A DNA stretch of 64,000 nt from assembly GCF_007859945.1 (NCBI RefSeq), contig NZ_SJPQ01000001.1:310001-374000 (forward strand). Direction: 5' to 3'. This document shows positions 10,780-53,638 of the stretch, in pieces; position 1 is the stretch's first letter, and each line of letters begins with the position of its first letter. Made by a program: the position numbers and the translations under genes. Source of the stretch: Pseudobythopirellula maris. GTDB taxonomy: Bacteria; Planctomycetota; Planctomycetia; Pirellulales; Lacipirellulaceae. The notes under the pieces were generated by a model. That model was not told where the DNA came from. It ran no database searches and saw only the letters and a list, made by a program, of their open reading frames with translations.

Positions 10780-11397
10780 GTTCGTCTTGAGAACTGACGC
10801 GAAGCTCGCCGACGCTGGGGGCGCGGGGAAAATCTATGGCGGGAAAAGATTGTCTTGTGAGACCCGTGTCGCTGTTGCGAGGGACTCGCCTATTGTAATC
10901 GATCGTGACCGTAGGATCCTAGTAATTGAACCCGCCATGGCGCCCCCCGGCCCCGTCGTCTCCAATCCCGTCGTTCCCAGCAAGGGGCTACAGGTGCAGA
11001 ACAGCCGGTCGATCGGCTCGTGTCGCTCCGCGATCCCGACATTATGCTGAATCGCGACTACAGTCGAGAACGGTCCGGCGTGCGTCAACCACTCGGCGCG
11101 CTGACCTGCGTTTGGGTGAGGTTGCTATTTCGTTCAGACAAAGCCGATCAGATCCACTCACGCCTCACACGATTCATCGCATACTGAAACGGCGCTCGCA
11201 TACCGATTCACTTCGACATTGACGCGACTGCGCCGCCCACCAACGATCTCCAACGTGTCCAGTGGCGTCTGACGGTCGATGCGATGCCTCACTTCTGGGC
11301 GCAGTTTTGCGTGCCCGTGCACGTCTTGGATCAAGTGGCTCCTGCCGATTCTCTGAGCTGAGCAAACCGTTCGAGATCGCGGCTCTGGCGCGGTACG
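10780..11397. other. Intergenic stretch without recognised gene
   Basis: About 600 bp between the CotH gene and the katG terminator. Short frames exist on both strands but none has a signal peptide, motif or convincing composition. It should hold the promoter of the CotH gene at the low-coordinate end. I see no RNA gene or repeat. Confidence 0.4.
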
Positions 11398-29059: not shown

Positions 29060-32000
29060 TCACCGGGCGCTCGGACCGCGAGAGGCCTGCGCCCCCGCCC
29101 CAGCCTGCCCAGACCCCCAGGAGTCGGCTGGCCACAAGATAGCGGCGCCGTCGCGGCTAGCGGTAAGGGCCGTGAGGCCATCGGGAGCGAACCCGACCGC
29201 AGTCACTTCCTGCGTGTGCCCGGCGAGCGAGAGAATCTCCTTGCCCGTGGCGGCGTCCCACAGCTTCACCGCGTTGTCGCGGCCGCCGGTCAGCACGCGG
29301 CGTCCGTCGGGGCTGATCGCCACGCTCGACACCCCCGCCGTGTGGCCCAAAAGCTCGGCCCGGGTTTCGCCCGTCGTGGCGTCCCACACACGGGCCGTGT
29401 TGTCCTCGCTGCCGGTAACGACCCAGTGGCCGTCGCGAGACACGGCGCCACACAGCACCGCCCAGGCGTGCCCTTCGAGCGTGAATTGGCTCTCCCCTGT
29501 AGCCGTGGAGCTGATCGCCGCGGCGCCATCGGCCGAGACCGTGAGCACCCGGTCGCCGGTGGGGAAGTAGATCGCGTCGAGCACGCGGCCGCGATGGACT
29601 CGCAGCTCGGGCCCGTTGCGTTTGCCGGTCGAGGCGTCCCAGCGACGCGCCACGCCGTCGTCGCCGCAGGTCAGCAGCTCGGAGCCGTCGGGCGAGAACC
29701 GGACGCCGTTGATCCCGCCCTGGTGGGCGTCGTTGAGTTTCAGCAGCGCCGAGCCCGTGGCGGCGTCCCACAGCTTGACCGATTGGTCCCAGCTGCCGGT
29801 GGCCACGCGGCGCCCGTCGGGCGACAGATCGGCCGACGCCACGGCGCCGTGGGCGCTGAAACGCATGGTGATTTGCAACGGGTCGAGCCTCCAGAGACGG
29901 GCGTCGTTGCCCCCGACAGTGATCACTCTCCGAGCGCCGCCGTCGCCCCGGTCTTCTTCGTTTTGGCCGGCGTAGCGGGCGGCCCACACGTAACCGGCGC
30001 CCTGATCGAAATCGATCAACTGTTCAAAAGCTCTTTCGGCGCCGGGCGCGAGGCGCCATTCGTAAACCGCCGCGGCGGCGGCCGAGGTGAGCAGCGCTCG
30101 CCGGCCGTTTGCCGCCAGATCGACCGCACTGAACACGGCCGCCTCGCCCGAGGGGAGCTTGAGCGGTTGCTCGGCCAGCAGTCGGCCGTCGTCGAGTCGC
30201 CACAAACGCGCCACCCCGTCGTCGCAAGCGGTCAGGGCCAGTCGGCCGTCGGCAGAGAGGTCGAGCGCCGAAACCCAATCGGGGTGTTTCAGCACGAGGC
30301 TCAGCAATTCGCGGCCGGTGCTCGGGTCCCATTGGGCGCAGGTCAGGTCGCCGCTCGACGAGACGAGACGCTCGCCACCGGGGGTGAATCGCAACGCCGT
30401 GACCGCCCGGCTGTGGCCCACCAACTCACGCTCTTGGCGCCAACCACCCTCGCTCGCCTGTCGCCAAAGGAGTATGCGTCCCCGCTCGTCGCCCGTGGCG
30501 AGCAGGTCGGCGCCGGAGAAAGCGACCGCGGTGACATCGGCCTCGTGCCCGGCGAGCGACTCCTGGAGTTCGCCGCCGGTGTTCCACAGCCTGACCCCGC
30601 GATTCGGTCCGCCCGTGGCGATCGTGCGGCCATCGGCCGACACGGCCAGCGCGCCGCTGCGGCCCGTGCCGGTGAGCGCCTGCGTTTCGGCCCCGGTCGC
30701 GACGCTCCACAGCCTGACCGTGTTGTCCCCTGCGCCCGTGGCCAGCATCCGCCCGCCATCGAACATGACGGCCGACGAGGCGAGGAACTCGTGGCCCTCG
30801 CTGAATCCTCGCAGCGGCTCCGCCGAGTCGGCGTCCCAGAGCACGGCGGTGCGGTCGCGGCTGGCGGTGAGCACTTGCGAGCCGTCCGCCGAGAAACGGG
30901 CGGCTAGCACGGCGTCGGCGTGCCCGTCGAGCACCTTGCCCCGCATCACGCGAGACTCGGCGTAGGCGGCTACATCCCACACACGGATTCGCGCGTCGTG
31001 GCCGGCCGAGGCGACGTGCGAACCGTCGGGGGAGTAGGCGACGCCGCGCACGCGGCCGCCGTGGCCACGGAGCGTTTTAATCGGCGCGCCGGTCCTGGCG
31101 TCCCACAGCTTGACGGTGTTGTCGTGCGAGCCGCTCGCCACGTGGCGCCCGTCGGGCGAGAAGGCGACCGCGCGGACCGCCTTGTCGTGGCCCTCGATCC
31201 GCAGGTAATCGTGCGGCGGGTCGGGCAGGCCGTCGAGGCGACGGTCGATGTCGACCGGCCTGACCCGCTCGGGATCCCAAACACACACCGCGCCGTCGTA
31301 ACCCGCCGTGGCGACTCGGTCGCCGGTCGGCGAAAACGCCGCGGCGTAAACCGGCCCGCTGTGACCATCGAATTCGGCGGCGCGCTCGTCGAACGGCCCG
31401 CTATCGGCGCCGGAACGGCGCCAGACGATCGCCTTGCCGTCTTGGCTGGCGGTGACCAAGAACTGGCCATCGGGTGAGAACTCGGCGTCCCAGACCCACC
31501 AGTTGTGCCCTTCGAGCTTGGCGGTCTGCCGGCCCGTGGCCAGGTCCCAAACCCGCGCGGTGTTGTCGTAGCCTCCTGTGGCGAGCCGAAGCCCATCGGG
31601 CGAGAACGCCACGGTGAGCACGGCTTCGTCGTGGCCTGTGAGGGTGCGAACGATGTCGCCCGTGGCGGCGTCAACCACGCGGGCCTTGCCGTCGCTGCTG
31701 CCCGTGGCGAGCCAGCGGCCATCCGGCGAGAAGGCGACCGCGTGGACGTATTGCCCCTGCCTGAAGGCGAGGAGCACCTTGCCCGTAGCGGCGTCGCGCA
31801 CCGCGGCTTGCCCCGACCAGTCGCCGCTTGCGACCCGCAAGCCATCGGGCGAGTAGGCGACCGCGTCGGCTGGCGCCGGCAGTGTGAACGTGCGTTCGTC
31901 GAGATCGCAGAGGTAGCGCAGCCGGCCCCACTCCCAGTGCCTCAGCTCGGCGGGGCAGTCTTTGAGCAAGTCGGCGGCGTAGTCGAAAGCGTTCTCGTCG

Positions 32001-34117
32001 ATCTTGGCCGCCGCCAACCCGATGCGGGCGACGTAAGCCTCGTAGCGTTCGCTCTCTTCGGCCGCCACCGCCTTGGCCTCCTCTTGCTCGGCGACCAGGC
32101 GTTGGCGGTTAGCCTCTTCCGCGTTTCGCTCGGCCTGCTCGGCGTTCAGCCTAGCCCTCTCGGCGTTGTCGTCGGCGATGCCTCGCTGCCGATCGGCCTC
32201 GTTCTTTTGGGCAACCGCCTCGGCCTCGTTCTTCTGGGCAAGCTCTGCGTTTTCCTCGGCCCGCTCACGCTGGGCGACCGCCTCGTTTTTCTGCTTGCTG
32301 ATTTCGAGGTACGAGTATGTGCCGCCGCCGATAAGCAGCAGCACGAGGCCCAGGGCCAGCAGCTTGGCGTTGCGCAGCCGACGCTGTCGCGCCGCGCGTT
32401 CGGCTTTGGCCCGATTGACCTCGGCGAGCAGCGAAGCCGCCTCGTCGGTCGGCTCGCCGTCGGTCGTCAGCAGCGAGGCCGCCAAGTCGTAGTCTTCGTT
32501 GCCGAAGGCGCAGCGGGCGTAGGCGAGGCGGGCGTCGTTCGCGAGCGTCGCGGCCCGGGTGTTGCCTTCCCACAGGGCGATCGCCTCTTCGAAGCCGAAC
32601 AAGGCGCGGGCAAAGATCTCGTAGTCGGCCCTCTCGGCGGCCAGCTCGAGGTTGCGTTGGGCGTTGGTGGTGAGCGCGAGGCTCTCCGAATGGGCTTGGT
32701 AACGCTCGACCGCCGCCTGGAACGCCTTGACCGTGGGGTAGCGGTCGGAGGGCTTTGTGGCCATCGCCCGCAGGGCGATCTCGATCAGCTCGCCCCGCTT
32801 GTCGGTCTCGACGATCTCGTTGCGAGCGGCCGCCATCAGGCACTGCATCACGTCTTTGCCGGTGTGCGGAGGGTCGCCCGTGACGACCTCGAACAGCATG
32901 GCGCCGAGCAGGTAGATGTCGCTGCGTGCGTCGATCGTCTCGACCGGGCCGCGGGCCATCTCGGGCGCCATGTAGGCGGGCGTCCCGCCGAGGCTGTCGC
33001 TCTGCACGACCGAGCCGGCGCTGCGGAACGACTCGTTCACGCGCGCCAGGCCCCAGTCCATCACGAGAACCTCGCCGTAATCGCCGAGCATCACGTTCTC
33101 GGGCTTCAGGTCGCGGTGCACCACTCCGCCGGCGTGGGCGAACGCCACCGCGTCGGCCACGCGCATCAGGATGCCGACATTCTCCGCGAGGGTTTTCTTG
33201 GTGAGCACCTCGTCCCACGGCGTCCCCTTCACCCGCTTCATCGAGTAGAAGAGAGCGCCCTTGGCGTTGGCGCCGAGGTCGTAGATCGGCACGATGTTCG
33301 GGTGCTCGAGCTCGCCGGTGACGACCGCCTCGGAGATGAACTTGTCGCGTGCTGCGGCCGCCTCCGCGTCGCCGCTGCCGCTCTTGCTCCCCTTGCCCCC
33401 CGGCTTGAGCATCTTCACCGCCACGGTGCGGGCGATCGACGACTGGCGGGCCGAGTAGACCACGCCCATGCCCCCCTGCCCCAGCATGTCGAGCAGCTCG
33501 TAGTCGGGCGCCTCGATCCCCTCCACAGCGCCGGTGAGCGACCGCGGCTTCACATCGCTGGTCGATTGCAGCGAACGCGACTTGATCGGCAAGGTCGACC
33601 GCTGGCCACCGACCGTCCTGCCAAGGGCGGCGCGGAGCGTGGCGCCGGTCTTGCCCTCGCTCGCCTCGGCGGCGGCGGCCCACTCGCCGGTCATCCGCAG
33701 GCCGAGCTCGTCGTCGGACTCGAGTGTCTCGAAATCGAGCGACGCCTCCCCGTCGCCCGCAGGGCCAACGCCGTCCAGGGTGGCGTAATCAACCGTCGCA
33801 TCGCCGGCGCCGCTGTGCGTCTGTCGGCCGGGCGGGAGCTCGACGGTCGCCCCCTCGTCGGCGCCGTCGAGCCGCAGCTCGTCGAACTCGACCGTCGCGT
33901 CCGCGCCGGTCACCGTGGCGTTCTTCTGCTTCTCGGGGCTCCCCTCGGTCGCTTCGTCCGGGATGATCGGGGCGTCGAAGTCGACGGTCGATTCACCCGA
34001 AAACTCGACCGTCCGGCCGGCATCGGACGATGCGTCATCGGGCGGCGTGCGGCCACACGCCGGGCAGGCGGCTGCGCGGTCGTCGAGTTCGGTTTGGCAG
34101 AACGGGCAAACGGGCAT
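29060..34117 (-). CDS. Ser/Thr protein kinase with zinc ribbon, TM helix, coiled coil and WD40 repeats
   Basis: A 1685-residue protein from ATG 34117. Residues 3-22 are a zinc ribbon (CPFCQTELDDRAAACPAC). Residues 35-150 are acidic, with repeated T-V-E/D-F/Y motifs. The PknB-like kinase domain (about 205-480) has LGQGGMGVVYSA, AVKML, the catalytic loop VVHRDLKPENVML, MDWGLA in place of DFG, and GTPAYMAPE. A tetratricopeptide-like stretch, a TM helix (LLALGLVLLLIGGGTYSYL, about 610) and a long coiled coil rich in Asn, Glu and Ala follow, then about 14 WD40 repeats (AFSPDGRWLATGS-type) forming probably two propellers outside the membrane. This layout is common in planctomycetes. It lies 80 bp downstream of the PKD-like gene. 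Confidence 0.93.
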   Translation of the reverse strand: MPVCPFCQTELDDRAAACPACGRTPPDDASSDAGRTVEFSGESTVDFDAPIIPDEATEGSPEKQKNATVTGADATVEFDELRLDGADEGATVELPPGRQTHSGAGDATVDYATLDGVGPAGDGEASLDFETLESDDELGLRMTGEWAAAAEASEGKTGATLRAALGRTVGGQRSTLPIKSRSLQSTSDVKPRSLTGAVEGIEAPDYELLDMLGQGGMGVVYSARQSSIARTVAVKMLKPGGKGSKSGSGDAEAAAARDKFISEAVVTGELEHPNIVPIYDLGANAKGALFYSMKRVKGTPWDEVLTKKTLAENVGILMRVADAVAFAHAGGVVHRDLKPENVMLGDYGEVLVMDWGLARVNESFRSAGSVVQSDSLGGTPAYMAPEMARGPVETIDARSDIYLLGAMLFEVVTGDPPHTGKDVMQCLMAAARNEIVETDKRGELIEIALRAMATKPSDRYPTVKAFQAAVERYQAHSESLALTTNAQRNLELAAERADYEIFARALFGFEEAIALWEGNTRAATLANDARLAYARCAFGNEDYDLAASLLTTDGEPTDEAASLLAEVNRAKAERAARQRRLRNAKLLALGLVLLLIGGGTYSYLEISKQKNEAVAQRERAEENAELAQKNEAEAVAQKNEADRQRGIADDNAERARLNAEQAERNAEEANRQRLVAEQEEAKAVAAEESERYEAYVARIGLAAAKIDENAFDYAADLLKDCPAELRHWEWGRLRYLCDLDERTFTLPAPADAVAYSPDGLRVASGDWSGQAAVRDAATGKVLLAFRQGQYVHAVAFSPDGRWLATGSSDGKARVVDAATGDIVRTLTGHDEAVLTVAFSPDGLRLATGGYDNTARVWDLATGRQTAKLEGHNWWVWDAEFSPDGQFLVTASQDGKAIVWRRSGADSGPFDERAAEFDGHSGPVYAAAFSPTGDRVATAGYDGAVCVWDPERVRPVDIDRRLDGLPDPPHDYLRIEGHDKAVRAVAFSPDGRHVASGSHDNTVKLWDARTGAPIKTLRGHGGRVRGVAYSPDGSHVASAGHDARIRVWDVAAYAESRVMRGKVLDGHADAVLAARFSADGSQVLTASRDRTAVLWDADSAEPLRGFSEGHEFLASSAVMFDGGRMLATGAGDNTVRLWSVATGAETQALTGTGRSGALAVSADGRTIATGGPNRGVRLWNTGGELQESLAGHEADVTAVAFSGADLLATGDERGRILLWRQASEGGWRQERELVGHSRAVTALRFTPGGERLVSSSGDLTCAQWDPSTGRELLSLVLKHPDWVSALDLSADGRLALTACDDGVARLWRLDDGRLLAEQPLKLPSGEAAVFSAVDLAANGRRALLTSAAAAAVYEWRLAPGAERAFEQLIDFDQGAGYVWAARYAGQNEEDRGDGGARRVITVGGNDARLWRLDPLQITMRFSAHGAVASADLSPDGRRVATGSWDQSVKLWDAATGSALLKLNDAHQGGINGVRFSPDGSELLTCGDDGVARRWDASTGKRNGPELRVHRGRVLDAIYFPTGDRVLTVSADGAAAISSTATGESQFTLEGHAWAVLCGAVSRDGHWVVTGSEDNTARVWDATTGETRAELLGHTAGVSSVAISPDGRRVLTGGRDNAVKLWDAATGKEILSLAGHTQEVTAVGFAPDGLTALTASRDGAAILWPADSWGSGQAGAGAQASRGPSAR

Positions 34118-34197
34118 AGGGAACGGCGCGGTTCTTGCGGAACTTGCGAAAGGCAGCGGCGCCTCGTGCGACGCTGCTTGAAAAGCGGATGCAGACT

Positions 34198-37100
34198 TCA
34201 GGGGCGGGGTTGGCGGTTCGCTCGACGCCAAACGCGGCGAAAGCGAGCCCACTGGGCTTTAGCGTCGCGACCCGCCAGCGCGCGGTCGAGCCGCTGGGCC
34301 CAAGCGCGATTGGCCCGGCTGCGGTCGATCGCGATCGGCGCGAGCGCAGCTGCGGCGACGAGCGGGGCGGCCGACGCTTCGGACGCCCCTTCGGCGGCTT
34401 CGGCCCCCTGAGCCGGGAACGGAATGCTCTCGATCGGCGCGGCTTCCGGCGGCTGTTGGGAGGGGTCCTCGTCGGCGGGCGAATCGGCCGGCGGGGTGCT
34501 GGGCTGCTCGAGCTGGCTCTCGCCAACCTCGCTGGTGGGCGGTCGGTCGCGGGCGCCGTCGGAGTCGTCCGAGGGGTCGATCAGCCGGCCCGAGCGGACG
34601 TAGACATCGATCACCAGCCGGCGTGAGCTGTTCTCGGTCCGCACCACGTAGACCCGGTAGCGGTTCTCTGGCAAGGTGCGGAACAGAGCCGGCAGGTCGT
34701 CGAGCGACTCGGTCTTGAGCCGATGCCCCTCGCCCTCCGTGCCGTCGGGATAAACGACCACCAATTCGAGGTAGCGTTCCGAGGCGACCGAGGCGTCGGA
34801 CCGGGCGGCGCCCTCGCTCGCGGAACGCGACTCGAGGTCGACATCGCTGACGCGCTCGGGCGGCAAAGCGACGACCTCGCGTTGGGGCAATTCCGCGGGG
34901 CCGCCCCCAGTCGCGAGCACGAACACCACCGTGTTGTCCTCGATGCCGGAGTTCTTGATCGCCACCGACTCGAGATTGCTCTCCCCCACCTGCAGGGCGG
35001 TCGAGCCGAAGTCGTCGTCCTGCACCTTCACGGTGATCACGATATCGGCCGAGGGATTCAGCGGGTCGGGGGGGCCGGTGTACGTGTGCTCGATGACAAC
35101 CGTCTGCGGAGTCGGCCCGGCGATCGTCTCCTCGGGCGTGAACCCGGCGCCGTCGCCCCAGTCGACAAGCACCACGAAGTCGTCGGCCCCGGGGTCTTCG
35201 AACGTGAGTGTGAGCGTCGTCTTGCCGTCGCCACCGACGTCGGTCGCGGCGACCGGGTCGAGCATCGGGTTGACGTTGAGCACCGTCACTTCGATCGTCT
35301 CGACGGTCACGCCGCCGTCGTCGTCGGTGAGCGTGACCGTGACCGTGTAAGTGTTGTCCTTCACCGTTTCGCCGAGCAGTTCTTCGTCCGTGTCGTTGTC
35401 GGTGTAGAAATGGCTCGCGGCGAGGGCGCCGGTTGTCGGCGTGCCCTCGGATCCGTTGACGGTCGACTCGGGCGGTCGCGGGGCGTCTTGCGTGCCGTCG
35501 CCCCAGTCGATCGTGTAGCTGAAGGTCTCGGTGTCGAACGCCGGGTCGGAAAACACGCCGAGCGCCGTGAGGTCGAGCGTTTCGCCTTCGTTGATCGTGA
35601 AAGGCTCGTCTGTGAGCACGAGGGTCGGCGCCACGTTCTCCACATGGACCGTCAACGCCGCGACAGCCACGCCGCCGTCGTCGTCGGTCAGGGTGACTGT
35701 GGCGGTGTAGTCGCCGTTGTCGCTGTAGATGTGCTCGCCGCTGAGAAAGCCAGCGCCACCCGACTCGGTGACCACGAGCGGCTCGGCCGCCGAACCGTCG
35801 CCCCAATCGATCGTGGCGGTGTGGGTGTCGTTGGTCCCCGGATCGGTGAAGCTGACAATCGGCGCCAACGCGCCCATCACCTCGGGAGTCAGCGTGAACA
35901 CCGCGCCTTCGTCCACGGTGGGATCAGCGATCGGGTCGAAAACCGGCGGCAGATTCGAGGTGTTGATCATCACGCTCGCCGAATCGGTCCCGGTGTCGTC
36001 GTCCGTGACCGTGAGTGTGATCGTGTACGAATCGACCGGCGTGCCGCTCGGGTTGTCGTCGATGTACTTGTGCGTTTCGCTGAACGCACGCTCGGCTGCC
36101 GAGTAGAGGAACGTCTCGGTCGAGCCATCGCCCCAGTCGACGGTGAGAGTGAACGTGTCCAGTGAGCCCGGGTCAACGATCACGCCGGTGAGGGTGGTCG
36201 AGCCGTTCTCATCGACATCGGTGGCCCCGATGCCTTGCAACGTCGGCGGCAGGTTCGCCACGTTGATCGTCGTGCTAGCGAGGCCGCGGTCGAGGTCGTC
36301 GTCCAACACTAAGAGCCGGATCACGACCGGGTCGGTCGCCGTGCCAGTCGGGTTGTCGTCGAGGTACTGGTGCGTTTCGCTGAAGGCGCGCTCGCCGGCC
36401 GCGTAGCTGAAAGTCTCGACCGTGCCGTCGCCCCAATCGACGCGGAGCGTGTGGGTGTCGAGCGTCCCGCCGTCGACGATCACGCCGCTGAGGGTCGCGA
36501 CACCGTTCTCATCGGCATCGGTCGCTGAGACGTCCGCAAGTTCAGGCGGCAGGTTCGATACTTCAATCGCGACGCTAGCTTCGCCCACGCCCCCGTCGTC
36601 GTCCTCGACCGTCAGCCGGATCGTCACCGGATCGACCTGGGTTCCCGAGGGGTTGTCGTCGAGGTATTGGTGCGTCTCGCTGAAGCTGCGGTCGGCGGCG
36701 GCGTAATTGAATGTCTCGACCGTGCCGTCGCCCCAGTCGACGGTGAGGGTGAAGCTGTCGGCCAAGCCGGGGTCGACGATGTCGCCGGAAAGCGTGGTCA
36801 CGCCGTTCTCATCGATGTCATCCGCCGTCACGTTCTCGAGTGCCGGGGCGACGTTTCCGACACGCACCGAATCGGTCACTAGGTCGCTCGCCCCGGTCGA
36901 GTCGGTCACGACCACCCGGGTGCGGTAGATGCCGTCATCGATGGGGGTGAACCGGAAAGCGGCGTCGTTGGACGTCTCGATCACAACGCCCGCCTGCAAG
37001 ATCGTCCACTCGAACTGCAAGTCGCCCGTGCCGGTCGCCTCGGCGCTGACCTCGACCGTGTCACCCTCCAACGCCGTGTTGGGCACGACCACATTCGTCA

Positions 37101-37275
37101 GCGTGGCGTCGAGCACGCGGCGTGGCTCGAGCCGGCGGACGACCAGGGCGTCGGCGCGGTCGCCGGGCGGACGCGTGGGACGCACTCGGCGGCCGAACCA
37201 GGCGGCGGGTTTTGAGGGCATACGCAAGACGGCGACCCGGAGGCGGTGGCGATCGTGTGATGGAAAACGGGGCAT
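34198..37275 (-). CDS. Large exported LEPR protein with PKD/cadherin-like repeats
   Basis: About 1025 residues. Near the N-terminus is VVRRLEPRRVLDATLTN, the LEPR motif. Seven or eight beta-sandwich repeats follow, with ENGVTTLSG, FTLTVDWGDGTVETF and FSETHQYLDDNPSGT as recurring units; 'DWGDG' is typical of PKD-like calcium-binding repeats. The C-terminal third is different: an acidic/Pro-rich region, a short hydrophobic helix (APLVAAAALAPIAI), and a basic tail of about 45 residues, a possible surface-anchoring signal. ATG 37275 has GAGG about 5 bases upstream and is used; ATG 37221 is the alternative. The kinase gene follows in the same direction and may share the transcript. Confidence 0.85.
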   Translation of the reverse strand: MPRFPSHDRHRLRVAVLRMPSKPAAWFGRRVRPTRPPGDRADALVVRRLEPRRVLDATLTNVVVPNTALEGDTVEVSAEATGTGDLQFEWTILQAGVVIETSNDAAFRFTPIDDGIYRTRVVVTDSTGASDLVTDSVRVGNVAPALENVTADDIDENGVTTLSGDIVDPGLADSFTLTVDWGDGTVETFNYAAADRSFSETHQYLDDNPSGTQVDPVTIRLTVEDDDGGVGEASVAIEVSNLPPELADVSATDADENGVATLSGVIVDGGTLDTHTLRVDWGDGTVETFSYAAGERAFSETHQYLDDNPTGTATDPVVIRLLVLDDDLDRGLASTTINVANLPPTLQGIGATDVDENGSTTLTGVIVDPGSLDTFTLTVDWGDGSTETFLYSAAERAFSETHKYIDDNPSGTPVDSYTITLTVTDDDTGTDSASVMINTSNLPPVFDPIADPTVDEGAVFTLTPEVMGALAPIVSFTDPGTNDTHTATIDWGDGSAAEPLVVTESGGAGFLSGEHIYSDNGDYTATVTLTDDDGGVAVAALTVHVENVAPTLVLTDEPFTINEGETLDLTALGVFSDPAFDTETFSYTIDWGDGTQDAPRPPESTVNGSEGTPTTGALAASHFYTDNDTDEELLGETVKDNTYTVTVTLTDDDGGVTVETIEVTVLNVNPMLDPVAATDVGGDGKTTLTLTFEDPGADDFVVLVDWGDGAGFTPEETIAGPTPQTVVIEHTYTGPPDPLNPSADIVITVKVQDDDFGSTALQVGESNLESVAIKNSGIEDNTVVFVLATGGGPAELPQREVVALPPERVSDVDLESRSASEGAARSDASVASERYLELVVVYPDGTEGEGHRLKTESLDDLPALFRTLPENRYRVYVVRTENSSRRLVIDVYVRSGRLIDPSDDSDGARDRPPTSEVGESQLEQPSTPPADSPADEDPSQQPPEAAPIESIPFPAQGAEAAEGASEASAAPLVAAAALAPIAIDRSRANRAWAQRLDRALAGRDAKAQWARFRRVWRRANRQPRP

Positions 37276-37476: not shown

Positions 37477-38040
37477 ATGGCAAGAATACGGATACACGCG
37501 TGGCTGGCGTTGGTCGCCTGCGCCGCCTGTGCGACCACGCTTGCGGCCGCGCCGCTGGGCCCGGTTGCCAAGCCCCTGGCCGAGCCGGGGCCCGATGCTT
37601 ACGCCATCCGGCCGATCAACTCGCTCGGTGTGGGGATCGGCGCCAAGCCCGGCGTGCTGCCGACCAACTACGCCGCCGAGCACGGCGTGGCGAGCCCCTC
37701 GCCGCTGGCTTCGGCGCGCAGCTGGCCTATCACCTGCTACCACTGGGCCGCCAGCGCCTCACGCAGCAACCCGCTCTACTTCGAAGAGGTGAACGCCGAA
37801 CGCTACGGCTACGCCTGCGGCTGCTTGCAGCCGGTCGTGTCGACCGTCCACTTCTTCGGGACGGTCCCCTACTTGCCTTACTTGATGGCGAGCGACTGCC
37901 CGCGTGAGTGCGTCTACACGCTGGGGCATTACCGCCCCGGCTCGTGCGCGCCGTACCGCAGCCACGGCTGGCCGGTCGACCTGCTGGGCGCCGCCGCCGA
38001 GGGGGGCGCCGTGGCGGGGCTCATCTTGCTCGTGCCGTGA
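37477..38040 (+). CDS. Exported Cys-rich planctomycete protein of unknown function
   Basis: A 187-residue protein with GGGGGAG about 8 bases before ATG 37477. Signal peptide MARIRIHAWLALVACAACATTLAAA. The body has eight or so Cys and the motifs NPLYFEEVNAERYGY, GCLQPVVSTVHFFGTVPYLP and LGHYRPGSCAPY. I recall these motifs from many planctomycete genomes as a family without function. The C-terminus is Ala/Gly-rich and hydrophobic (AAEGGAVAGLILLV). It directly precedes the integron. Confidence 0.8.
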   Translation: MARIRIHAWLALVACAACATTLAAAPLGPVAKPLAEPGPDAYAIRPINSLGVGIGAKPGVLPTNYAAEHGVASPSPLASARSWPITCYHWAASASRSNPLYFEEVNAERYGYACGCLQPVVSTVHFFGTVPYLPYLMASDCPRECVYTLGHYRPGSCAPYRSHGWPVDLLGAAAEGGAVAGLILLVP

Positions 38041-44711: not shown

Positions 44712-44729
44712 GACTGAAAGGATCAATCC

Positions 44730-45164: not shown

Positions 45165-45188
45165 TCGAATGGAACGTCCTGCGAAGGC

Positions 45189-45279: not shown

Positions 45280-45283
45280 CGCC

Positions 45284-45725: not shown

Positions 45726-46009
45726 GCAGCGGTCTCTCTTTGATGGGGATATCTCATGCAGTTCGGGCAACTCTTGAGCTGCAGCGGTTGGACCATCCTC
45801 GGGCTCGGCGGCGGCTCGCGATGACGCTGAGGTCGAAACGACCGACGAGGATTTCGGAGTGATCGAATCGGCCTCGGCTTCATCGTTCGAAGCTGATTTT
45901 GGGCTTGTACTACCGTCCCGTTTTCCTTCGTTGCACCGGCTCTCTGGGACTTTGATTACCAGAACGAGTTGGCAGAACGCCGTAAAGCCGAATAACCTCA
46001 CTAGGTCTC
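45726..46009. other. Region between the integron and the export genes
   Basis: No convincing gene. TGAGCTGCAGCGGT occurs twice, 55 bp apart (45720-45733 and 45775-45788); the first copy overlaps the decayed core of the last attC. A plus-strand frame ends WDFDYQNELAERRKAE at 45992 but has no start. It may hold remnants of a lost cassette or the end of an older gene. Confidence 0.4.
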
Positions 46010-48235
46010 TTAATAGGCCGACCAGAAGAGCCGGCTGAGCGTGTCGAGCAGCCGCTCGCCGAGCGGCGTGGCGCCGGCGTCGATCTTCACGCGACCCAGG
46101 GCGCCGATCGGCAACTCGGCCGGCGGCTCGTCGAACTCGATGAGCGCCAAGCAAATCGCCTCTTCGCTGAGCGTGGCGCGAGAGCGAGCGAACCACAATC
46201 CCTGAGCGGGATTTTCCCGGTCGGTGTGCGCTGTGCGCCGCGAAACCTCGACGAGCTTGCCCGTGACCACCTTGGGGCCCAGGGCGCCGATCGCTAAACG
46301 AACCGGCTGGCCAGGGCGGATGAGGTCGGATTGCGACTCGTCGACAAACGCCTCGACGACCAAGTCGCTCGGCTCGCCCACCTGGCAGACCACGGTTCCC
46401 TCCTCGAGCCAAGCGCCAGCCAGCGGGGCGCGGTTCGCCGCGTCGAGCGGGCTCCCTCGCCAAGTCGAAAGCTCCCGATCGTCGGCTTCCGCTCCCGACG
46501 CCTCGCTCGGGGACGCGAGGTTCTGCGGCGCTGTGACGACGCCGTCGCGCGGGGCTCGCAGGGTGAGCCTTTCGGATTCGGCCTCGAGGTCGGTCAGCCG
46601 TTTGCTCAAGGCCTCAAGCGTCGCGCGAGCTGCTGGCAAGCGAGTCCCCGACTGGGGGTCTTCGGCGCGCAAGACACCGAGGTGCTCGACCACGAGCCGC
46701 TGCTCGGCGACTTCGCCGCGGAGGCGGGCGATCGCGTGCTCGGTGTCGGGATTGGCGAGCCGCGCGACAACGTCCCCCTGGGAGACCCAGTCACCCGGCG
46801 CGGCGGCGTGCACCAAGCGACCCGCCATGGTGACGGCCACGGCCGTCGCCCCGCGGGGCGCCACCACGGCCGCGGCGGTCACCCGGTGAGGCAGGGGCGT
46901 GTTGAGCGCCGCGGCGGCGATCACGATCGCCGCCAAGCTCGCCAACACCGCCCGCCCGCCGCGCAACCGCCGCCGCGCGATCGGGTTGCCGGCAAAGCCG
47001 ACCGCTTGGCGTATCGGGCCGGCGATCATGGCCGACGCCATCAAGATCGCGAGCCCCCAGGCTATCGCCTGCAACCTCAGCGGCGCTAACGAGGCGAACA
47101 GCAGCATCACGATGGTCGCCATCACGACCGTGAGATAAACACGAGAAACAACCCCGTAAGCGGCCATCCAAGTCGGCTCGGCGGGCGATGGGGGGCCGGT
47201 CGGAGGGCGGAAGAACCAGCGGCCCACGACAGCTGCGCTCGCCTTTCGCGAGCGTTCCCAAAGATTGGGCGTCCGCGTGAGGTCCGAGAGCAGGTAGTAA
47301 CCGTCGTAACGCATCAGTGGGTTCGCGTTCACGACCAGCGTGCCCAGAGCGCCTACCACGATGGTGTTCACGGCCAACAGTCGCACGAGTCCCGGCTCGC
47401 TGTAACGCCAAACCAGCACCGCGATCGAGGCCAGGGCGATCTCGACCAGCACCCCCGCGGCGCTGACGAGCATCCGCCCCGCGCGGCTCGGCAACCGCCA
47501 GGCGTCTGAGACGTCGCAGTAGAGACACGGCGTGAAGGCGAGCAGCATGACGCCGAGTTCGTGGACGGCGCCGCCGCCGCGTTTGCAACCGACGGCGTGA
47601 CCAAGCTCGTGCAAGGTTTTCATCGCGGCCACGGTCGCCAGCAACAGCAGCCACACGCCCGGCTGAGAGAGCGAATCGAGACGCGGCAGGTCGGCCAGGA
47701 AGCGGTCGAAGTTCGTGAACAAGATCGACGCGGCGATTGCCGCCAGCACAGCGATCGTGACGAGGCCCGCGAATGAGAAGATCCCTCCCAACCAAGGCGC
47801 AACGCCCTGCAAGAAACGGTCGGGGTCGACGCCGCGCGTGCGCATGGCGAGCAACCGGGTCCAGCCCCAGCGGCGCGAGTTCGCACGGCGTTTCTCCTCC
47901 ATACGCCACAAGGCGTCGGCCTGGCCGGGCAGTTCCGACACCACCAGCCCCGCCTCGGTGAGCCGAGACAGATAAGCCTGAAGCTCCGCCTCGCTCACCC
48001 GCCGCGGCGCAAAACGCCGCTCGAACAGCCGCCGCAACTGGCGGAGCGTCACGCCCTCTTTGTCGAGTCCGACTAGGAGCGCGTGCTCTTCTTCGCTCAG
48101 CTCGAAATGGGCGAGTGTGACCGGATCGGTCACGACGCAACGACCGGAAACGGCGCCGGGGCTCGTGGTGAGCACATCGCGACGCGGCGTAAGGCGGAGC
48201 GGTCGATCGGCCGCCGAGGCGAACGAGGCGTTCAT
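46010..48235 (-). CDS. PqqD-like / M50 (site-2 protease type) / HlyD fusion membrane protein
   Basis: A 741-residue protein from ATG 48235. Residues about 30-105 look like a PqqD-like winged helix (TLAHFELSEEEHALLVGLD, GVTLRQLRRLFERRF, LSRLTEAGLV). The membrane part has M50 metalloprotease signatures: TLHELGHAVGCKRGGG (HExxH, residues 209-213) and NANPLMRYDGYYLLSD (second motif, Asp311), plus FTPCLYCDVSDAWRLPSRAG. The C-terminal 250 residues are an HlyD-like adaptor with lipoyl halves (GDWVSQGDVVARLANPD, LTLRAPRDGVVTAPQ) and a coiled coil. It overlaps the next HlyD gene by 4 bp (ATGA). Probably part of an export machine in the inner membrane. Confidence 0.85.
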   Translation of the reverse strand: MNASFASAADRPLRLTPRRDVLTTSPGAVSGRCVVTDPVTLAHFELSEEEHALLVGLDKEGVTLRQLRRLFERRFAPRRVSEAELQAYLSRLTEAGLVVSELPGQADALWRMEEKRRANSRRWGWTRLLAMRTRGVDPDRFLQGVAPWLGGIFSFAGLVTIAVLAAIAASILFTNFDRFLADLPRLDSLSQPGVWLLLLATVAAMKTLHELGHAVGCKRGGGAVHELGVMLLAFTPCLYCDVSDAWRLPSRAGRMLVSAAGVLVEIALASIAVLVWRYSEPGLVRLLAVNTIVVGALGTLVVNANPLMRYDGYYLLSDLTRTPNLWERSRKASAAVVGRWFFRPPTGPPSPAEPTWMAAYGVVSRVYLTVVMATIVMLLFASLAPLRLQAIAWGLAILMASAMIAGPIRQAVGFAGNPIARRRLRGGRAVLASLAAIVIAAAALNTPLPHRVTAAAVVAPRGATAVAVTMAGRLVHAAAPGDWVSQGDVVARLANPDTEHAIARLRGEVAEQRLVVEHLGVLRAEDPQSGTRLPAARATLEALSKRLTDLEAESERLTLRAPRDGVVTAPQNLASPSEASGAEADDRELSTWRGSPLDAANRAPLAGAWLEEGTVVCQVGEPSDLVVEAFVDESQSDLIRPGQPVRLAIGALGPKVVTGKLVEVSRRTAHTDRENPAQGLWFARSRATLSEEAICLALIEFDEPPAELPIGALGRVKIDAGATPLGERLLDTLSRLFWSAY

Positions 48236-49173
48236 CGCGGCGCCTCGCGGTGTTCGCCGGCGTCGCGCGGCTGCCTGTCGCCGCGGCCCTGGGACTCCCC
48301 AATGCTGATCGTCATCTCGCCACGCGCGCCGGGCCGCAGTCGCCCGTGGCGGTTGTCGACTTCGGCCCACACGCGCACCTGCGCGTTGATCGGATCGACC
48401 TCGGGACTCACAAAGGCGAGGCGGCCCTCGACGACGGTCGGCGGCCCGGCGCCCGTCAATTCGAGCCGTACCACGTCGCCGGGATGGACTGCTGTGGCCC
48501 GGGATGCTTCGACGAACCCCTCGGCTTTGAGCGTGCTCGTGTCGACCAGCCGGAAGGCGCGTTGCCCCGGCTCGACCCATTCACCGAGGCGAACGAAAGA
48601 CTCCACCACCACGCCGCCGAACGGCGCGGTGATCTGGCGGCGCTCGACCTCGAGCTTGGCGACTGACAGCTCGTGCTCGCGGAGTTTGAGCTCCAGCAAC
48701 GCCTCTTTGTGATTCTCCTCGGCCTGCTCGTGCTCGAGCTCGGCCTGTTCGACTTTGAGCCGCTCGACGTCGATCTGCGACTGCGAGATGCTTTTAGCAA
48801 ACCGCTCGATCGACTCGCGCGAGCGGGCGAGTTCGGCGGCGGCGGTCTCGCCCGCCTTGGCGGAGAAACGGAGTTGCACGTCGTTGCGGGCCGCCTGCTC
48901 GGCGATCGCCCGCCGCGCCTCAGCGGCTAGCAGAGCGAGCCGCGCTTCGGCGTCGTCGATGCGCGCCAATGCCTGGCCGCGGCGGACCGTGTCGCCCTCG
49001 CGAACGAGCACCGCTTCGAGGGCGCCGCTGGCGCGCGAAGGCGCCTCGGCCTCGGTGATCAACCGCAGCACCACCCCTTCGACTACGACAGGCTCGCCGC
49101 CCCAGGCTAGGCCAGAGCTTGTTAGTGCCAGCCCGAGCGAGAGCAACATCGTTCTAGTAAAGATTGAACGCAT
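48232..49173 (-). CDS. HlyD-family periplasmic adaptor
   Basis: A 313-residue protein from ATG 49173, whose A is also the last base of the upstream stop (TGATG). Signal peptide MRSIFTRTMLLSLGLALTSS. Lipoyl half VLVREGDTVRRGQALARIDD, a long coiled coil (SISQSQIDVERLKVEQAELE), second lipoyl half TAPFGGVVVESFVRLGEWV and a beta-barrel (LKAEGFVEASRATAVHPGDV) make a complete membrane-fusion protein. Such adaptors bridge an inner-membrane pump with a TolC channel. It is translationally coupled to both neighbours. Confidence 0.92.
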   Translation of the reverse strand: MRSIFTRTMLLSLGLALTSSGLAWGGEPVVVEGVVLRLITEAEAPSRASGALEAVLVREGDTVRRGQALARIDDAEARLALLAAEARRAIAEQAARNDVQLRFSAKAGETAAAELARSRESIERFAKSISQSQIDVERLKVEQAELEHEQAEENHKEALLELKLREHELSVAKLEVERRQITAPFGGVVVESFVRLGEWVEPGQRAFRLVDTSTLKAEGFVEASRATAVHPGDVVRLELTGAGPPTVVEGRLAFVSPEVDPINAQVRVWAEVDNRHGRLRPGARGEMTISIGESQGRGDRQPRDAGEHREAPR

Positions 49174-51191
49174 CAGAATCGCCACCATGTCACGAGGGCG
49201 TCGACAAGGTCTCCCAACCACACGCGACCGAGAGGTTTCTGGCCGCAATGCACACGGGCGAGCACCGTCTCGCCTGGCCGCAGGGTGCGGCGCCCCTCGG
49301 CCTCGGAGAGCAGCGGCGAGTCGGGCTCGACCGTCACAAGCACCGACGGGCGGGCGCCATCGCCTACAGGCGCGGTTGCACTGGCCGCGATCTCGACGAC
49401 CCGACCGGTGAGCTCTTTGTCGCCCAGCGTCGACAAGCGGAATTCAACCGCCAGCGGTTCCGCCGACTCACGCTCGGCCGCCAGCAACCGGCCGATGCGG
49501 TCGTCTGGCGCCGCCAACTCCAGACGCCAGGGGGCGTCGTCGGCGACGACGGAGACGAGCAGCTGGCCCCGCTCGACCGGTCGCGCGTCGATCTTCTGTT
49601 CGATCCGCCAACTGATCACGCGCCCGGCGATCGGGCTGCGCACGGTGAGCGCCTGGCGGTCGCGTTCGTACAACGCCAGCTCTTCACGCAAGCTCTCGAG
49701 CCGTTGGCCGAGCTCGCGGGCCTCGGCCGAGAGTCGCAGAGAGTCGGTCGGCTCGCCCCGCCTCGAATCGAGGCTCGCCCGCGCGGCGGCGATCGCGTCG
49801 AGCTGCCGCTCGGCCGTGAGCAATTCGCCCGTGAGCCGGCTCAGCTGAAGATCGTTCTGCGGATCACGGAGCACGACGAGCGGCTGCCCCTCGGCGACCC
49901 GGTCGCCGTGCGCGACCTGCACGCGATCGACCAGACCGCTCGCCGGGGCGAACAAATCGCTCCGCACCGCGGGCCGCAACTCGCCGCGAGCAACCACGAC
50001 GTCGTCGGCTTGAATCAACAAGAGCGCCGCCGCCAACGCGGCCGTGACGACCGCCGCCAGCAGAACCCGCAGCCACCCGCCGGGACGTTTTAAAGCACGC
50101 AACGCCTTGGAGAATCCTAAAAGCGGCAGCGAATCGTATTCGATCGCCGCGCTAAGCGCCGGAGCGCACACGGCGGCCGACTCGAGCAACATGGGCTTGT
50201 CGAGCGGCTCGCCGTCGAATCGCTCGCCAATCAGCACGCCGAGAACGGGAGCAAGTTCCTCGCCAGGCTCCGGCGCCAGGCGGATCGGCACGGCGAGCAC
50301 CTGCCGGGCGTGCGAGCCGTCGGCGTGTTCGTGGAGCAGGTCCGTGGCGATCTCGGCTTCCGCGCCGCCCCGCTCGGTGTGATCTTGGTCGAGCCACAGC
50401 GGCTCGCCGTCGTGCCGGCAGAGACGCGCCAACCTTTCGAGCCGTCGAGCGGCTTGGCCACGCCGTTCGACGCGCGAGGCGCCGCTCACGGCCAGCAACT
50501 CGCAACGCGTCAGCCGCCCGGCGCCGGCGGTGCGCACCAGGCTCACCCGGTCGCAATGGCCGAGGCGCCGGCTGCCCTCGACGATTCGCATCGCCGTGGG
50601 CGTCAGTCGCGTGTCGCGGCCCGTGTCGCTCGCAAAACGGAGCAACGCGGCGAGATCGTGCTGCGAAGATCCCACGCCGGTCGCTTTATGGCGAGCAGCG
50701 GCGATCGCCGCCGCCTCGGCCAAGAACTCCGCAGCGCAATCGAGTCGCTCGGCGGGCGTGTCGGGGGCAAACAGCAACTCGATGAGCGCCGCCGTGCCGC
50801 CCGCCGCGGATCCCCCACCAGACGGCACGCGCGCGATCACGCACGACGAGCCCACATAAGTCGCCTCGCGATGCACCACCGCCCGCGAGAGGTCCGCCTC
50901 GCGGAGTTCGCGTTGTTCATCCTCGGCGCCAACGCCCAGCGCCAGCAGCGGCCGCAGACGGCCCGGTTCCTCGACAAGCCACACCGCCCCGCCAGCCGCG
51001 GCGAGACGATCGCTGCTCGCCCGGAGCAATTGTTCGTAGAAGGCTTCGGCCCCGCCCGCCCCCGCAGCCAGCAACGCCAGCTCTTCAAGCGTTTCGCCGA
51101 GCACGCTCCAGACCGCCTCGCCGTCGCGATCGCATGGCCGATCGGACTGCTCGCTAGCGGCGGTGTCGGCGTTGGAAGAGGTGGGGGCCAT
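49173..51191 (-). CDS. GAF-like sensor fused to an HlyD-type adaptor
   Basis: A 672-residue protein from ATG 51191. Residues 25-365 are cytoplasmic and look like two GAF-like domains (AGGAVWLVEEPGRLRPLLAL, HARQVLAVPIRLAPE, LGVLIGERFDGEPL). One TM helix (about 388-408, LRVLLAAVVTAALAAALLLI) leads to a HlyD part: VVARGELRPAVRSDLFAPAS, LVDRVQVAHGDRVAEGQPLV, a coiled coil (LLTAERQLDAIAAARASLD) and VRSPIAGRVISWRIEQ. This puts a ligand-sensing module on the cytoplasmic side of an adaptor. It is the first gene of the minus-strand set. Confidence 0.83.
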   Translation of the reverse strand: MAPTSSNADTAASEQSDRPCDRDGEAVWSVLGETLEELALLAAGAGGAEAFYEQLLRASSDRLAAAGGAVWLVEEPGRLRPLLALGVGAEDEQRELREADLSRAVVHREATYVGSSCVIARVPSGGGSAAGGTAALIELLFAPDTPAERLDCAAEFLAEAAAIAAARHKATGVGSSQHDLAALLRFASDTGRDTRLTPTAMRIVEGSRRLGHCDRVSLVRTAGAGRLTRCELLAVSGASRVERRGQAARRLERLARLCRHDGEPLWLDQDHTERGGAEAEIATDLLHEHADGSHARQVLAVPIRLAPEPGEELAPVLGVLIGERFDGEPLDKPMLLESAAVCAPALSAAIEYDSLPLLGFSKALRALKRPGGWLRVLLAAVVTAALAAALLLIQADDVVVARGELRPAVRSDLFAPASGLVDRVQVAHGDRVAEGQPLVVLRDPQNDLQLSRLTGELLTAERQLDAIAAARASLDSRRGEPTDSLRLSAEARELGQRLESLREELALYERDRQALTVRSPIAGRVISWRIEQKIDARPVERGQLLVSVVADDAPWRLELAAPDDRIGRLLAAERESAEPLAVEFRLSTLGDKELTGRVVEIAASATAPVGDGARPSVLVTVEPDSPLLSEAEGRRTLRPGETVLARVHCGQKPLGRVWLGDLVDALVTWWRF

Positions 51192-51427
51192 ACACGCCAG
51201 TTTATCAACGCCTCGCAAATCCCCCCCTCCCCGGGCGCGCCGAGCCGGCGGATTCTTTGCCGACTCGGCGAGCCGTAGCGATCCGGCCGATTACACCGCT
51301 TTTACTGGTTCGATCGCCTGCCGGCGCCGATGGCTACAACAAGAAACGGTGCGCTGCATCCGCCAAGGGATGGGCGACGCCATCACCCAGGGCAGCTGCT
51401 AGCACAACCCACGGGGACCGTCGTCCG

Positions 51428-53638
51428 GTGAAATTCCTGCGGAATAGTCGACCGAAGGCAAACACGCTGCGGGCCTTGCTCGCCGTGGCGGTCGTTGTCG
51501 CCCCAGCCGCGGGCTGCCGCTCGGGCGCGTCGAGCAAGTTCAAGGCTTGCTCGTCGGTCGTGGACCAGGACTGCTACACGCAGGCCGCCAGCGAGATCGA
51601 GTACCCGGCGGTGAGCCTTTGCACGCTCGAGGCGTGCAACGACCCGCTTGTCTCGGCCGCTCCTCACATGCTCAGCGACCCGACCCCCGCCGACTATCGC
51701 GAGTTGGTGCTCGAGGACGCGGTGCGCATCGGGCTGCAGCACTCGGCCGTGTTGCACGATCTGGGCGGAACGGTGCTCCGCGCCCCGGACGCCACGCGCA
51801 CGCGCTGGGACCCGTCGATCCGCGAAACCGATCCGGCCACCGGCATCGAAGCGGCCCTCAGCGCGTTCGACGCCGAGTTCACCACCAGCGTGTTCAACGA
51901 GAAGAACGACCGGGCGATCAACAACCAGTTCTTCGGCGGCGGCACCCGCATCCTGCTGCAGGACACGAGCGTCACGCAGATGCAACTGCGCAAACGCGGC
52001 GTGACCGGCACGGAGATGACGCTCCGCAACCTGATCGAGTTCGACTCGAACAACGCGCCGGGCAACTTCTTCCAGAGCGCCTGGACCACCAAAGTCGAAG
52101 GCGAGGTGCGCCACCCGTTCCTGCAAGGCGGCGGCGTGCAGTACAACCGCATCGCCGGCCCATCGACGACGCCAGGCGTTTACAACGGCGTGCTGATCGC
52201 GCGGGCGAACACCGACGTGCAATTGGCGGAGTTCGAGATCGCCGTCCGCAACCTGGTGAGCAACCTCGAGAACGCCTACTGGGATCTCTACTTCGCCTAC
52301 CGCGACCTCGACGCCAAGATCGCGGCCCGCGACGCGTCGCTGGAGACATGGCGGCGGGTGCAAGCTCTCTACCAAGCGGGTCGCCGCGGCGGCGAGGCGG
52401 AGAAAGAAGCCCAGGCTCGCGAGCAGTACTACCGCTTCCAGGAAGAAGTCCAGAACGCACTGAGCGGCAAGCTCGTCGATGGCACCCGCACCGGCAACGG
52501 CAGCCAAGGCGGCACGTTCCGAGCCACCGGCGGCGTGTACGCGGCCGAGCGGCAGCTGCGGCGGCTGATGGGACTGCCCACGAGCGACGGACAATTGCTA
52601 CGGCCCTCGACCGAACCGGTTGTTTCGCAGGTCGTGTTCGACTGGGAACACGTGGCCAGCGAGGCGGTCGAGCGTCGGGCCGAGTTGCGCCGCCAGCGGT
52701 GGCGGATCCGCCGCCGGGAGCTGGAGTACGTCGCCAGCAAGAACCACCTGCTGCCGCGTCTCGACGCGGTCGGCCGCTACCGCTTCCGCGGATTCGGCGA
52801 TGACTTCGCTCACTCGGGGGGCAACAACGGCCGGTTCGACAACTCGCTCGAGGACCTCACGACCGGCGATTTCCAGGAGTGGCAGGTCGGCGTCGAGCTC
52901 AGCGTGCCGATCGGCTTCCGCCAGGCCCACGCCGGCGTGCGCAACGCCGAACTCCACCTGGCCCGCGAGCGGGCGATTCTGTGCGACCAGCAGTCCGAAG
53001 TGGTCCACGAGGTCGCCGGCGCCGTGGCCGAGGTCGATCGTGCTTACCTGGTGTCGCAAACCAGCTACAACCGCCTGATCGCGAGCCGCGAGCAGCTCGA
53101 CGCCGTTTCGGCGGCCTTCGAGTCGGACAAGGCGCCCCTCGACCTGCTGCTCGAAGCGCAGCGCAAGGTGGCCGAGGCCGAGTCGCGGTTCTTCCGCAGC
53201 ACGGTGGAGCACGCCCTGGCGGTCAAGAACGTTCACTTCGTGAAGGGGACCTTGCTGGAGTACGATGGCGTGGCGCTCGCCGAGGGCCCCTGGCCCAGCA
53301 AAGCGTACCACGACGCGGCGGACCTCGAGTCGCGACGCGCCCGGCCGCGCAAGCTGAGTTACATTGCTGACCGCCCTGAGAAAGTCGCGCAGGCGCCCTT
53401 CGATCAGATCCGCGCCAGCAGGCCCACACCGCTGCCGTCACCGGTAGACGTCCCGACCTTGGTGCCCGCCCCACCGGCCAATTGGCCCGCGCCGCTGAGC
53501 GATGGCGCCCGTGCTCTGCCGCCAACCGATATCCTTCGGCCGGTCGAACTCAAGCCAGTGGGCTACAGCGAGCCCTTGAAACGAGACCCCGCATCGGCGC
53601 CGAAGCTGTTGGCTCCGCTCGCAACAGGCTCGCGTTGA
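51428..53638 (+). CDS. TolC-family outer membrane efflux lipoprotein
   Basis: A 736-residue protein, GTG 51428. Signal with lipobox AAGC (LLAVAVVVAPAAGC). The outer membrane efflux protein fold appears as two repeats with long helices: LVLEDAVRIGLQHSAVLHDL, FEIAVRNLVSNLENAYWDLY, HLARERAILCDQQSEVVHEV and LEAQRKVAEAESRFFRSTVE, and strands around QLRKRGVTGTEMTLRNLIEF. It is longer than most TolC proteins, with a Pro-rich C-terminal tail (PTPLPSPVDVPTLVPAPP). Divergent from the HlyD/M50 genes, it is the likely outer membrane channel of that system. Confidence 0.9.
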   Translation: MKFLRNSRPKANTLRALLAVAVVVAPAAGCRSGASSKFKACSSVVDQDCYTQAASEIEYPAVSLCTLEACNDPLVSAAPHMLSDPTPADYRELVLEDAVRIGLQHSAVLHDLGGTVLRAPDATRTRWDPSIRETDPATGIEAALSAFDAEFTTSVFNEKNDRAINNQFFGGGTRILLQDTSVTQMQLRKRGVTGTEMTLRNLIEFDSNNAPGNFFQSAWTTKVEGEVRHPFLQGGGVQYNRIAGPSTTPGVYNGVLIARANTDVQLAEFEIAVRNLVSNLENAYWDLYFAYRDLDAKIAARDASLETWRRVQALYQAGRRGGEAEKEAQAREQYYRFQEEVQNALSGKLVDGTRTGNGSQGGTFRATGGVYAAERQLRRLMGLPTSDGQLLRPSTEPVVSQVVFDWEHVASEAVERRAELRRQRWRIRRRELEYVASKNHLLPRLDAVGRYRFRGFGDDFAHSGGNNGRFDNSLEDLTTGDFQEWQVGVELSVPIGFRQAHAGVRNAELHLARERAILCDQQSEVVHEVAGAVAEVDRAYLVSQTSYNRLIASREQLDAVSAAFESDKAPLDLLLEAQRKVAEAESRFFRSTVEHALAVKNVHFVKGTLLEYDGVALAEGPWPSKAYHDAADLESRRARPRKLSYIADRPEKVAQAPFDQIRASRPTPLPSPVDVPTLVPAPPANWPAPLSDGARALPPTDILRPVELKPVGYSEPLKRDPASAPKLLAPLATGSR

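Follow-up and report, generated by a model that had tools for sequence, protein, structure and literature searches.

A planctomycete RRE–M50–HlyD gene module and its likely cargo, giant proteins with an N-terminal LExR tag

In type I secretion (HlyB/HlyD/TolC), HlyD adaptors and a TolC-type channel serve the export of large repeat proteins, as they probably do at the locus described here. In accessory Sec (SecA2), a second SecA is devoted to special, often large surface proteins, much as we propose below for one that would be coupled to HlyD and TolC parts. The closest described relative of our locus is a module reported by Kamneva, Poudel and Ward in 2015 (PMC4452313), in which a secondary SecA_DEAD protein is grouped with HlyD, Peptidase_M50 and GAF-HlyD proteins. 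These authors called its broader role completely unknown, noted the missing ABC transporter, proposed SecA as the ATPase and the M50 protein as the pore, and observed that parts of the module can lie apart; an OEP gene is present in some loci, and the secondary SecA lacks the wing-scaffold domain. The sections of their paper on which we draw describe the module without a cargo, a leader tag or a PqqD/RRE domain (PMC4452313). Because the module had already been described, the machine is not a discovery of the present work. What is new here is the cargo, which is likely to consist of giant repeat proteins carrying an N-terminal LExR tag rather than of a peptide or small protein. Similar N-terminal tags have been defined as LEPR-XLL (NF012209) and Planc_extracel (PF07595). 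The parts we consulted of two papers mentioning LEPR-XLL name no partner machine for it, and in the open-access literature we found nothing linking LEPR-XLL, Planc_extracel (not queried by name) or DUF4347 proteins to the machine. Leads to a Pectobacterium multi-repeat adhesin and a Dickeya hlyD gene, as far as the excerpts of those sources go, concern other systems and were set aside.

The window analyzed here is a 64,000-nucleotide stretch of the Pseudobythopirellula maris genome. On its minus strand, and in order of transcription, lie genes for a GAF-HlyD adaptor of 672 aa (49173..51191), an HlyD-type periplasmic adaptor of 313 aa (48232..49173) and a 741-aa fusion of an RRE/PqqD-like domain, an M50 site-2 protease and an HlyD adaptor (46010..48235). 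GAF-HlyD and HlyD overlap by 1 bp (TGATG), HlyD and M50 by 4 bp (ATGA). A divergent plus-strand gene (about 51428..53638) encodes a TolC-like outer-membrane lipoprotein, its start inferred from a lipobox-like APAAGC. Genes were taken as homology-ranked ORFs in this high-GC DNA; the coordinates and overlaps agree with a sequence-only reading of the window, which had described three coupled genes and a divergent TolC-like lipoprotein. Pfam places HlyD domains in three of the proteins and OEP in the fourth, NCBIfam adds to the HlyD assignment, and the fusion was assigned from Pfam, the family alignment and an AlphaFold model. The GAF-HlyD protein has a single predicted membrane segment (376–394), and its name comes from its relatives: GAF (PF01590) is found in 13 of 35 family members (best 6.8e-16), the window protein not among them, and single-protein Pfam and NCBIfam scans of the latter listed no GAF domain. 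Like the module of Kamneva et al., the locus combines an M50 protein with HlyD domains, HlyD and GAF-HlyD, and has no ABC transporter (PMC4452313, in the sections used here).

The AlphaFold model of the M50 protein, built with 41 aligned sequences, reached a mean pLDDT of 86.3. Residues 13–100 resemble the leader-binding domains of TbiB1 and TfuB1, both solved with leader peptides (Z 10.7 and 10.2), residues 187–321 the site-2 protease RseP (Z 10.7), residues 139–321 SpoIVFB (Z 9.6) and residues 448–722 the adaptor MacA (Z 15.5). Modelled alone (pLDDT 87.6), the front domain matched 5v1v best (Z 10.7, rmsd 2.6, 86 residues aligned), and its six best rows were 5v1v, 5v1u, 6jx3, TigE, MibB and PqqD 5sxy (Z 8.1); the nine best rows of a Foldseek search were all RRE proteins. 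A PDB sequence search with the front-domain profile gave weak and mixed matches, headed by the non-RRE winged-helix protein 2g9w (0.0077) and followed by 6jx3, 3g2b and 5v1u (0.012–0.047). The sequence-only reading had called this domain PqqD-like. The modelled fold bears that out, and a profile search recovers PqqD in 8 of the 41 aligned family members (best 2.2e-5), as well as above the cut-off in a Methylosinus relative (28.7 vs 23.4 bits) that NCBI names 'PqqD family protein'; but the window protein is not among the eight, and neither Pfam (E up to 1) nor NCBIfam lists PqqD for it. We conclude from the model that a winged-helix RRE/PqqD fold heads the M50 protein, for which leader binding is predicted. 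The fold is that of the RRE domains of RiPP pathways (TbiB1, TfuB1, PqqD), whereas here it is fused to a protease and an adaptor, and we propose a giant protein's N-terminus as its partner.

The Pfam M50 match of the window protein is weak (20 bits, cut-off 27.2). HELGH begins at residue 209, YCDVSDAW at 239 and NANPLMRYDG at 303, and H209, E210, H213 and D311 are invariant in all 41 alignment rows, window included. An intact HELGH with a second metal motif had been read from the sequence earlier; this conservation and the RseP and SpoIVFB folds agree with it. By these residues the protein is an M50 intramembrane protease with an intact catalytic site, whose cleavage is putative.

A leader-binding fold next to a protease could also suit a machine that matures and exports a small ribosomal peptide, the RRE reading a RiPP leader. 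The M50 part resembles the daptide protease NF041824 (2.3e-42; 145.5 bits, below the cut-off of 300) and the YydH/LiaK protease (NF058609), both of which have a similar M50 part and front domain, with a Pseudosulfitobacter relative (L130) at 3.1e-47. The proteins studied here, however, fall far below the cut-offs, have an HlyD part added and lie in no daptide context that we saw. Against a peptide product, too, the recurring tagged neighbours are giants, and no small precursor was conserved among the clustered neighbours of at least 50 aa; a short precursor could have been missed because the clustering listed no ORFs under 50 aa. We consider a RiPP product very improbable. From the earlier proposal that a leader-bearing peptide or small protein is exported, the leader-recognizing fold, the intact protease and the HlyD/TolC conduit survive.

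Neither an ABC nor an RND exporter is present in the four-gene set; the ABC gene noted in the window is pstB (58349–59233), a phosphate importer gene. Among 91 related loci, window excluded, a Walker A plus LSGGQ pattern detected an ABC-like ORF in three, one of which is a Phyllobacterium type I system, and one RND query, taken from locus L035, found that locus only. Homologues are therefore not regularly placed next to a pump, in line with the pumpless set first described, and a SecA-type motor is encoded elsewhere in the genome. Since the window HlyD exceeds the RND_mfp cut-off of NCBIfam (120.5 vs 94.9 bits), the adaptors and TolC might be thought to belong to a pump for drugs or metals whose gene lies elsewhere. 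Efflux, however, would not explain the RRE, M50, SecA or the tagged giants, and pumps are nearly absent from the 91 loci, so that we give this explanation hardly any credence.

A homologue search with the M50 protein yielded 74 loci, which with the window and a second copy from the same genome make 76. The fetched loci are mostly from Planctomycetota, with a few from Zixibacteria, Rokubacteria, Verrucomicrobia, Myxococcales, GN15 and Alphaproteobacteria. Clustering placed GAF-HlyD in 48, HlyD in 40 and TolC in 30 of the 76, counts to be read with many contigs ending early and the window's own HlyD missed by the clustering. Judged by these clusters, the grouping of GAF-HlyD, HlyD and TolC around M50 exceeds chance. 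The usual order in Pirellulales loci is TolC / GAF-HlyD, HlyD, M50. The second M50-HlyD-GAF-HlyD set of the window's genome (G000) lies at 7816–13492 of the stretch G000:C1:1720000-1739000, in which no tagged giant was seen.

Beside many of the exporters are encoded giant proteins that share an N-terminal tag, a basic stretch followed by LExRxx(L/F)(S/D/N)A, comparable with LEPR-XLL and Planc_extracel. Of the 903 ORFs of at least 400 aa in the loci, 24 have the pattern within their first 200 residues, where shuffled sequences lead one to expect 1.8. We judged 22 of the 24 to be real: 9 belong to Proteobacteria and 13 to Planctomycete loci, among them the window. Tag-like matches in L062 and L122 were discarded as chance occurrences. 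Only 13 of the 76 M50-centred loci, the window included, have a tagged ORF in view. NF012209 was not listed, even at E<=10, for the giants of L015, L041 and L043. Sec signals exceed the tag regions in hydrophobicity by only a small margin: one of 43 scored tag segments, a few of them chance tag matches, reaches 1.8, and the window's own Sec-type HlyD start scores 1.63.

In Proteobacteria, tagged giants accompany 13 of 16 assessable loci, namely 10 of 13 found through M50 (12 plasmids and L066) and 3 of 3 found through SecA. These come from the 14 of 75 plasmid records with M50 that were opened and from 3 of 125 with a SecA match, chosen for names other than SecA; L116, whose giant runs off the record start, and L122, at a record end, were left out of the count. 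No tagged giant was found in L112, L121 or L108, the last of which has an ABC type I system close by. The tagged ORF lies 4 kb downstream in L123 and, at 400 aa, 13 kb upstream in L120. Operons run giant, TolC, HlyD, HlyD, M50 or giant, HlyD, M50, SecA, with variations. As examples of the tag, Azospirillum has MALEPRFMFDAA, an E. coli plasmid ALESRQLFDGA, Pseudosulfitobacter LEPRFLLSAD and Methylosinus LEPRVLLNAD. The Pseudosulfitobacter cargo, which NCBI names a LEPR-XLL protein, shares its operon with HlyD, a site-2 protease and a SecA-like gene. The longest neighbour is a Variovorax gene of 48.7 kb, about 16,200 codons.

In Methylosinus and Mesorhizobium (L131, L132) a DUF3467 gene separates the giant from the HlyD genes; in Pseudosulfitobacter, M50 and SecA flank a SapC-family gene. 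On E. coli plasmids (L109; L113, pABWA45_1) the operon includes a 4457-aa Ig-like giant. The M50 gene was found in 24 of 5426 complete E. coli genomes and is plasmid-borne in 21 of 25 places. Since operon relatives occur on E. coli and Citrobacter plasmids, the system moves between hosts.

We then compared the distribution of tag and exporter across 391 Planctomycetota genomes. The M50 family (E<=1e-20) is present in 137 and NF012209 (E<=0.01) in 47, and 46 of these 47 LEPR-XLL genomes also have M50 (Fisher 1.2e-22, a p-value that, like those below, ignores shared descent); the exception is G132, of family f64. Outside the window's class, M50 is present in 33 of 34 LEPR-XLL genomes against 45 of 296 without the tag (1.1e-22), the outside-class status of genomes not among the M50 matches listed being read from row order. 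PF07595 is found in 28 genomes, 26 with M50 (the others being G048 and G139), and outside the window's class 4 of 6 have M50 (p 0.03). Our own tag model, which is partly circular, matched 43 genomes, every one with M50 at E<=1e-60. Conversely, 18 genomes with weak M50 matches only had no match to NF012209 or PF07595. Four families (f6, f10, f35 and f76) hold both kinds of genome, and among the genomes listed NF012209 occurs only beside a strong M50 match. In control genomes at loose E-values, NF012209 matched 7 of 14 and PF07595 8 of 14; at the thresholds used, these became 0 and 1 of 14.

Counting the M50 places listed, with at most two M50 candidates scored per genome (so that copy and adjacency counts refer to those places), 6 of 143 LEPR-XLL matches lie within 12 kb of an M50 gene where 1.04 are expected, and 11 of 106 matches of our own model lie near one where 0.79 are expected. 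Eight genomes of the same order as the window's genome have a Planc_extracel frame of 4.7–4.9 kaa starting about 30 kb from their second M50 gene, and a tagged giant also 1–4 kb from the first.

These counts bear on whether the giants are cargo or company. The machine might export something else, with tagged giants as frequent neighbours, for example if both were typical of large surface-attached genomes; many Planctomycete loci have no tagged giant in view, and the sections of Kamneva et al. that we cite left the role open (PMC4452313). The position of the giants within operons across two phyla, the near-complete co-occurrence with NF012209 (46/47) and the absence of NF012209 from close kin without a strong M50 match all argue against mere company, and we regard export of something else as improbable.

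With no ABC transporter in the locus, a secondary SecA is the candidate motor. The window's genome encodes one at G000:C1:573204-575072. This protein is 47% identical to the query sequence and has SecA_DEAD, P-loop and PP_bind domains but no SecA_SW match. Unlike in the module of Kamneva et al., its gene lies outside the locus, 215 kb from the M50 gene, and the surroundings searched, out to about 8–10 kb, showed no further component of the system. Neighbour clustering recovered secondary SecA (cluster c20) beside M50 in six loci. We surveyed the 47 LEPR-XLL genomes and 33 control genomes without a strong M50 match, using one secondary SecA as query (E<=1e-110). Matches occurred in 43 of the 47, and secondary SecA was counted in 41 of the 47 against 0 of 33 controls. 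The count takes frames under 830 aa, over 500 bits or beside M50, which sets aside canonical SecA; the length cut was chosen after seeing the rows, and the result does not change for cuts anywhere between 799 and 830 aa. Matches in 11 of the 33 controls fell in frames of 831–1690 aa and scored at most 455 bits. Among the M50 places listed, 25 of the 47 LEPR-XLL genomes have secondary SecA no more than 8 kb from M50. In the plasmid operons opened through M50, no SecA gene was seen, and therefore secondary SecA cannot be the partner everywhere, unless canonical SecA serves. Such operons must use another motor, perhaps canonical SecA.

Taken together, we favour, at a probability of roughly 0.7, a dedicated secretion system for giant repeat proteins of adhesin- or matrix-like type, leader-guided and SecA-driven, in which binding, cleavage and route are inferred. 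The RRE domain would bind the N-terminal tag in the cytosol, and the secondary SecA, standing in for an ABC pump, would push the chain through in unfolded form. The multi-helix M50 protein may form or join the inner-membrane entry and cut off the leader; the HlyD adaptors and TolC would carry the chain to the surface, and the GAF protein would regulate export. The system differs from type I secretion in that the locus has no ABC transporter, the proposed signal is N-terminal, and RRE, M50 and SecA are extra.

Alternatively, the giants may exit by Sec or type I secretion, and the RRE–M50–HlyD machine may later anchor, release or trim them at the envelope, as LapG acts there on LapA-like adhesins. 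The small difference in hydrophobicity between tag regions and Sec signals would permit a Sec exit, and generic ABC matches, below the LssB cut-off, are present in all 47 LEPR-XLL genomes; an LssB-type type I transporter scored over the cut-off in none of the 47. A Vibrio LEPR-XLL protein is described, in the portion of its paper used here, with C-terminal RTX and serralysin-like domains (PMC10868602), which also speaks for another exit. Yet, besides the protease, the operons encode HlyD and TolC parts and a motor of their own, ABC-like ORFs were as rare as noted above (3/91), and a leader-binding fold in the cytosol is best understood as acting ahead of export. We therefore think such a later role unlikely, though less so than the other alternatives.

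Dedicated export of tagged giants can be stated more broadly, as a secretion system of its own kind across Planctomycetota, Proteobacteria and plasmids, in which the RRE would read the LExR tag, a wing-less SecA would drive the chain, the site-2 protease would admit and trim it, and HlyD and TolC would give a one-step exit to proteins of up to about 16,000 residues with no ABC pump. To this full form we lean with somewhat less conviction. If the inferred steps hold, the system would deserve a class of its own. The gene module in print since 2015 would gain a probable function, and two orphan N-terminal motifs on very large bacterial proteins a machine. Leader recognition would extend from small peptides to giant proteins, and giant-protein export in planctomycetes and other bacteria becomes testable.

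In the window itself, we propose as cargo a PKD-repeat protein encoded on the minus strand (34198..37275), with an N-terminal VVRRLEPRRVLDA tag, a hydrophobic C-terminal segment and a basic tail. The proposal draws on pattern, synteny and homology, the protein sharing 44.6% identity with a giant encoded next to the exporter of a relative; it was listed neither by NF012209 (E up to 0.1) nor by PF07595 (E up to 0.01). The window exporter would serve this protein and probably also many tagged ones encoded at other places of the genome. A second candidate is a 1176-aa minus-strand frame (7306..10833) with FGIESLEPRQMLTA, whose PF07595 match (3.3e-4) reaches 23.8 bits and so falls short of the 25.5-bit cut-off. 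Genome-wide, apart from the window cargo, NF012209 exceeds its cut-off at four places and PF07595 likewise at four; at E<=10, PF07595 matches 23 places, 20 of them in frames of at least 750 aa. Our tag model matches 19 places at E<=1e-4, several of which are part of the model. An open frame of 7597 aa at G000:C1:897332 (minus strand) matches Planc_extracel weakly (E 1.5).

Divergent from the cargo gene lies a plus-strand gene (37477..38040) for a small protein with a signal-peptide-like start. Its homologues occur in 15 related loci, mostly beside the exporter, and usually adjoin a tagged giant; the family has a conserved LYFEExNxERYG and no Pfam match. On the other side, the minus-strand frame of a protein kinase-WD40 protein (29063..34258) overlaps that of the cargo. 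Several relatives have the same neighbour, and its membership in the system is doubtful.

Exporter and proposed cargo are separated by this small-protein gene and by an integron (38266–46009, about 38.3–46 kb), of a kind that we did not notice in the loci of the relatives. Its integrase (38266–39618, minus strand) scores 436.9 bits against TIGR02249 (cut-off 265). A strict attC scan does not discriminate, giving one pair here as against 0, 2 and 0 in three stretches used as controls. Past the integrase, the integron body spans about 7 kb at 51–55% GC, between flanks of 61–71%, and holds small plus-strand ORFs, one with DUF4240, with repeats of 85–105 nt between some of them.
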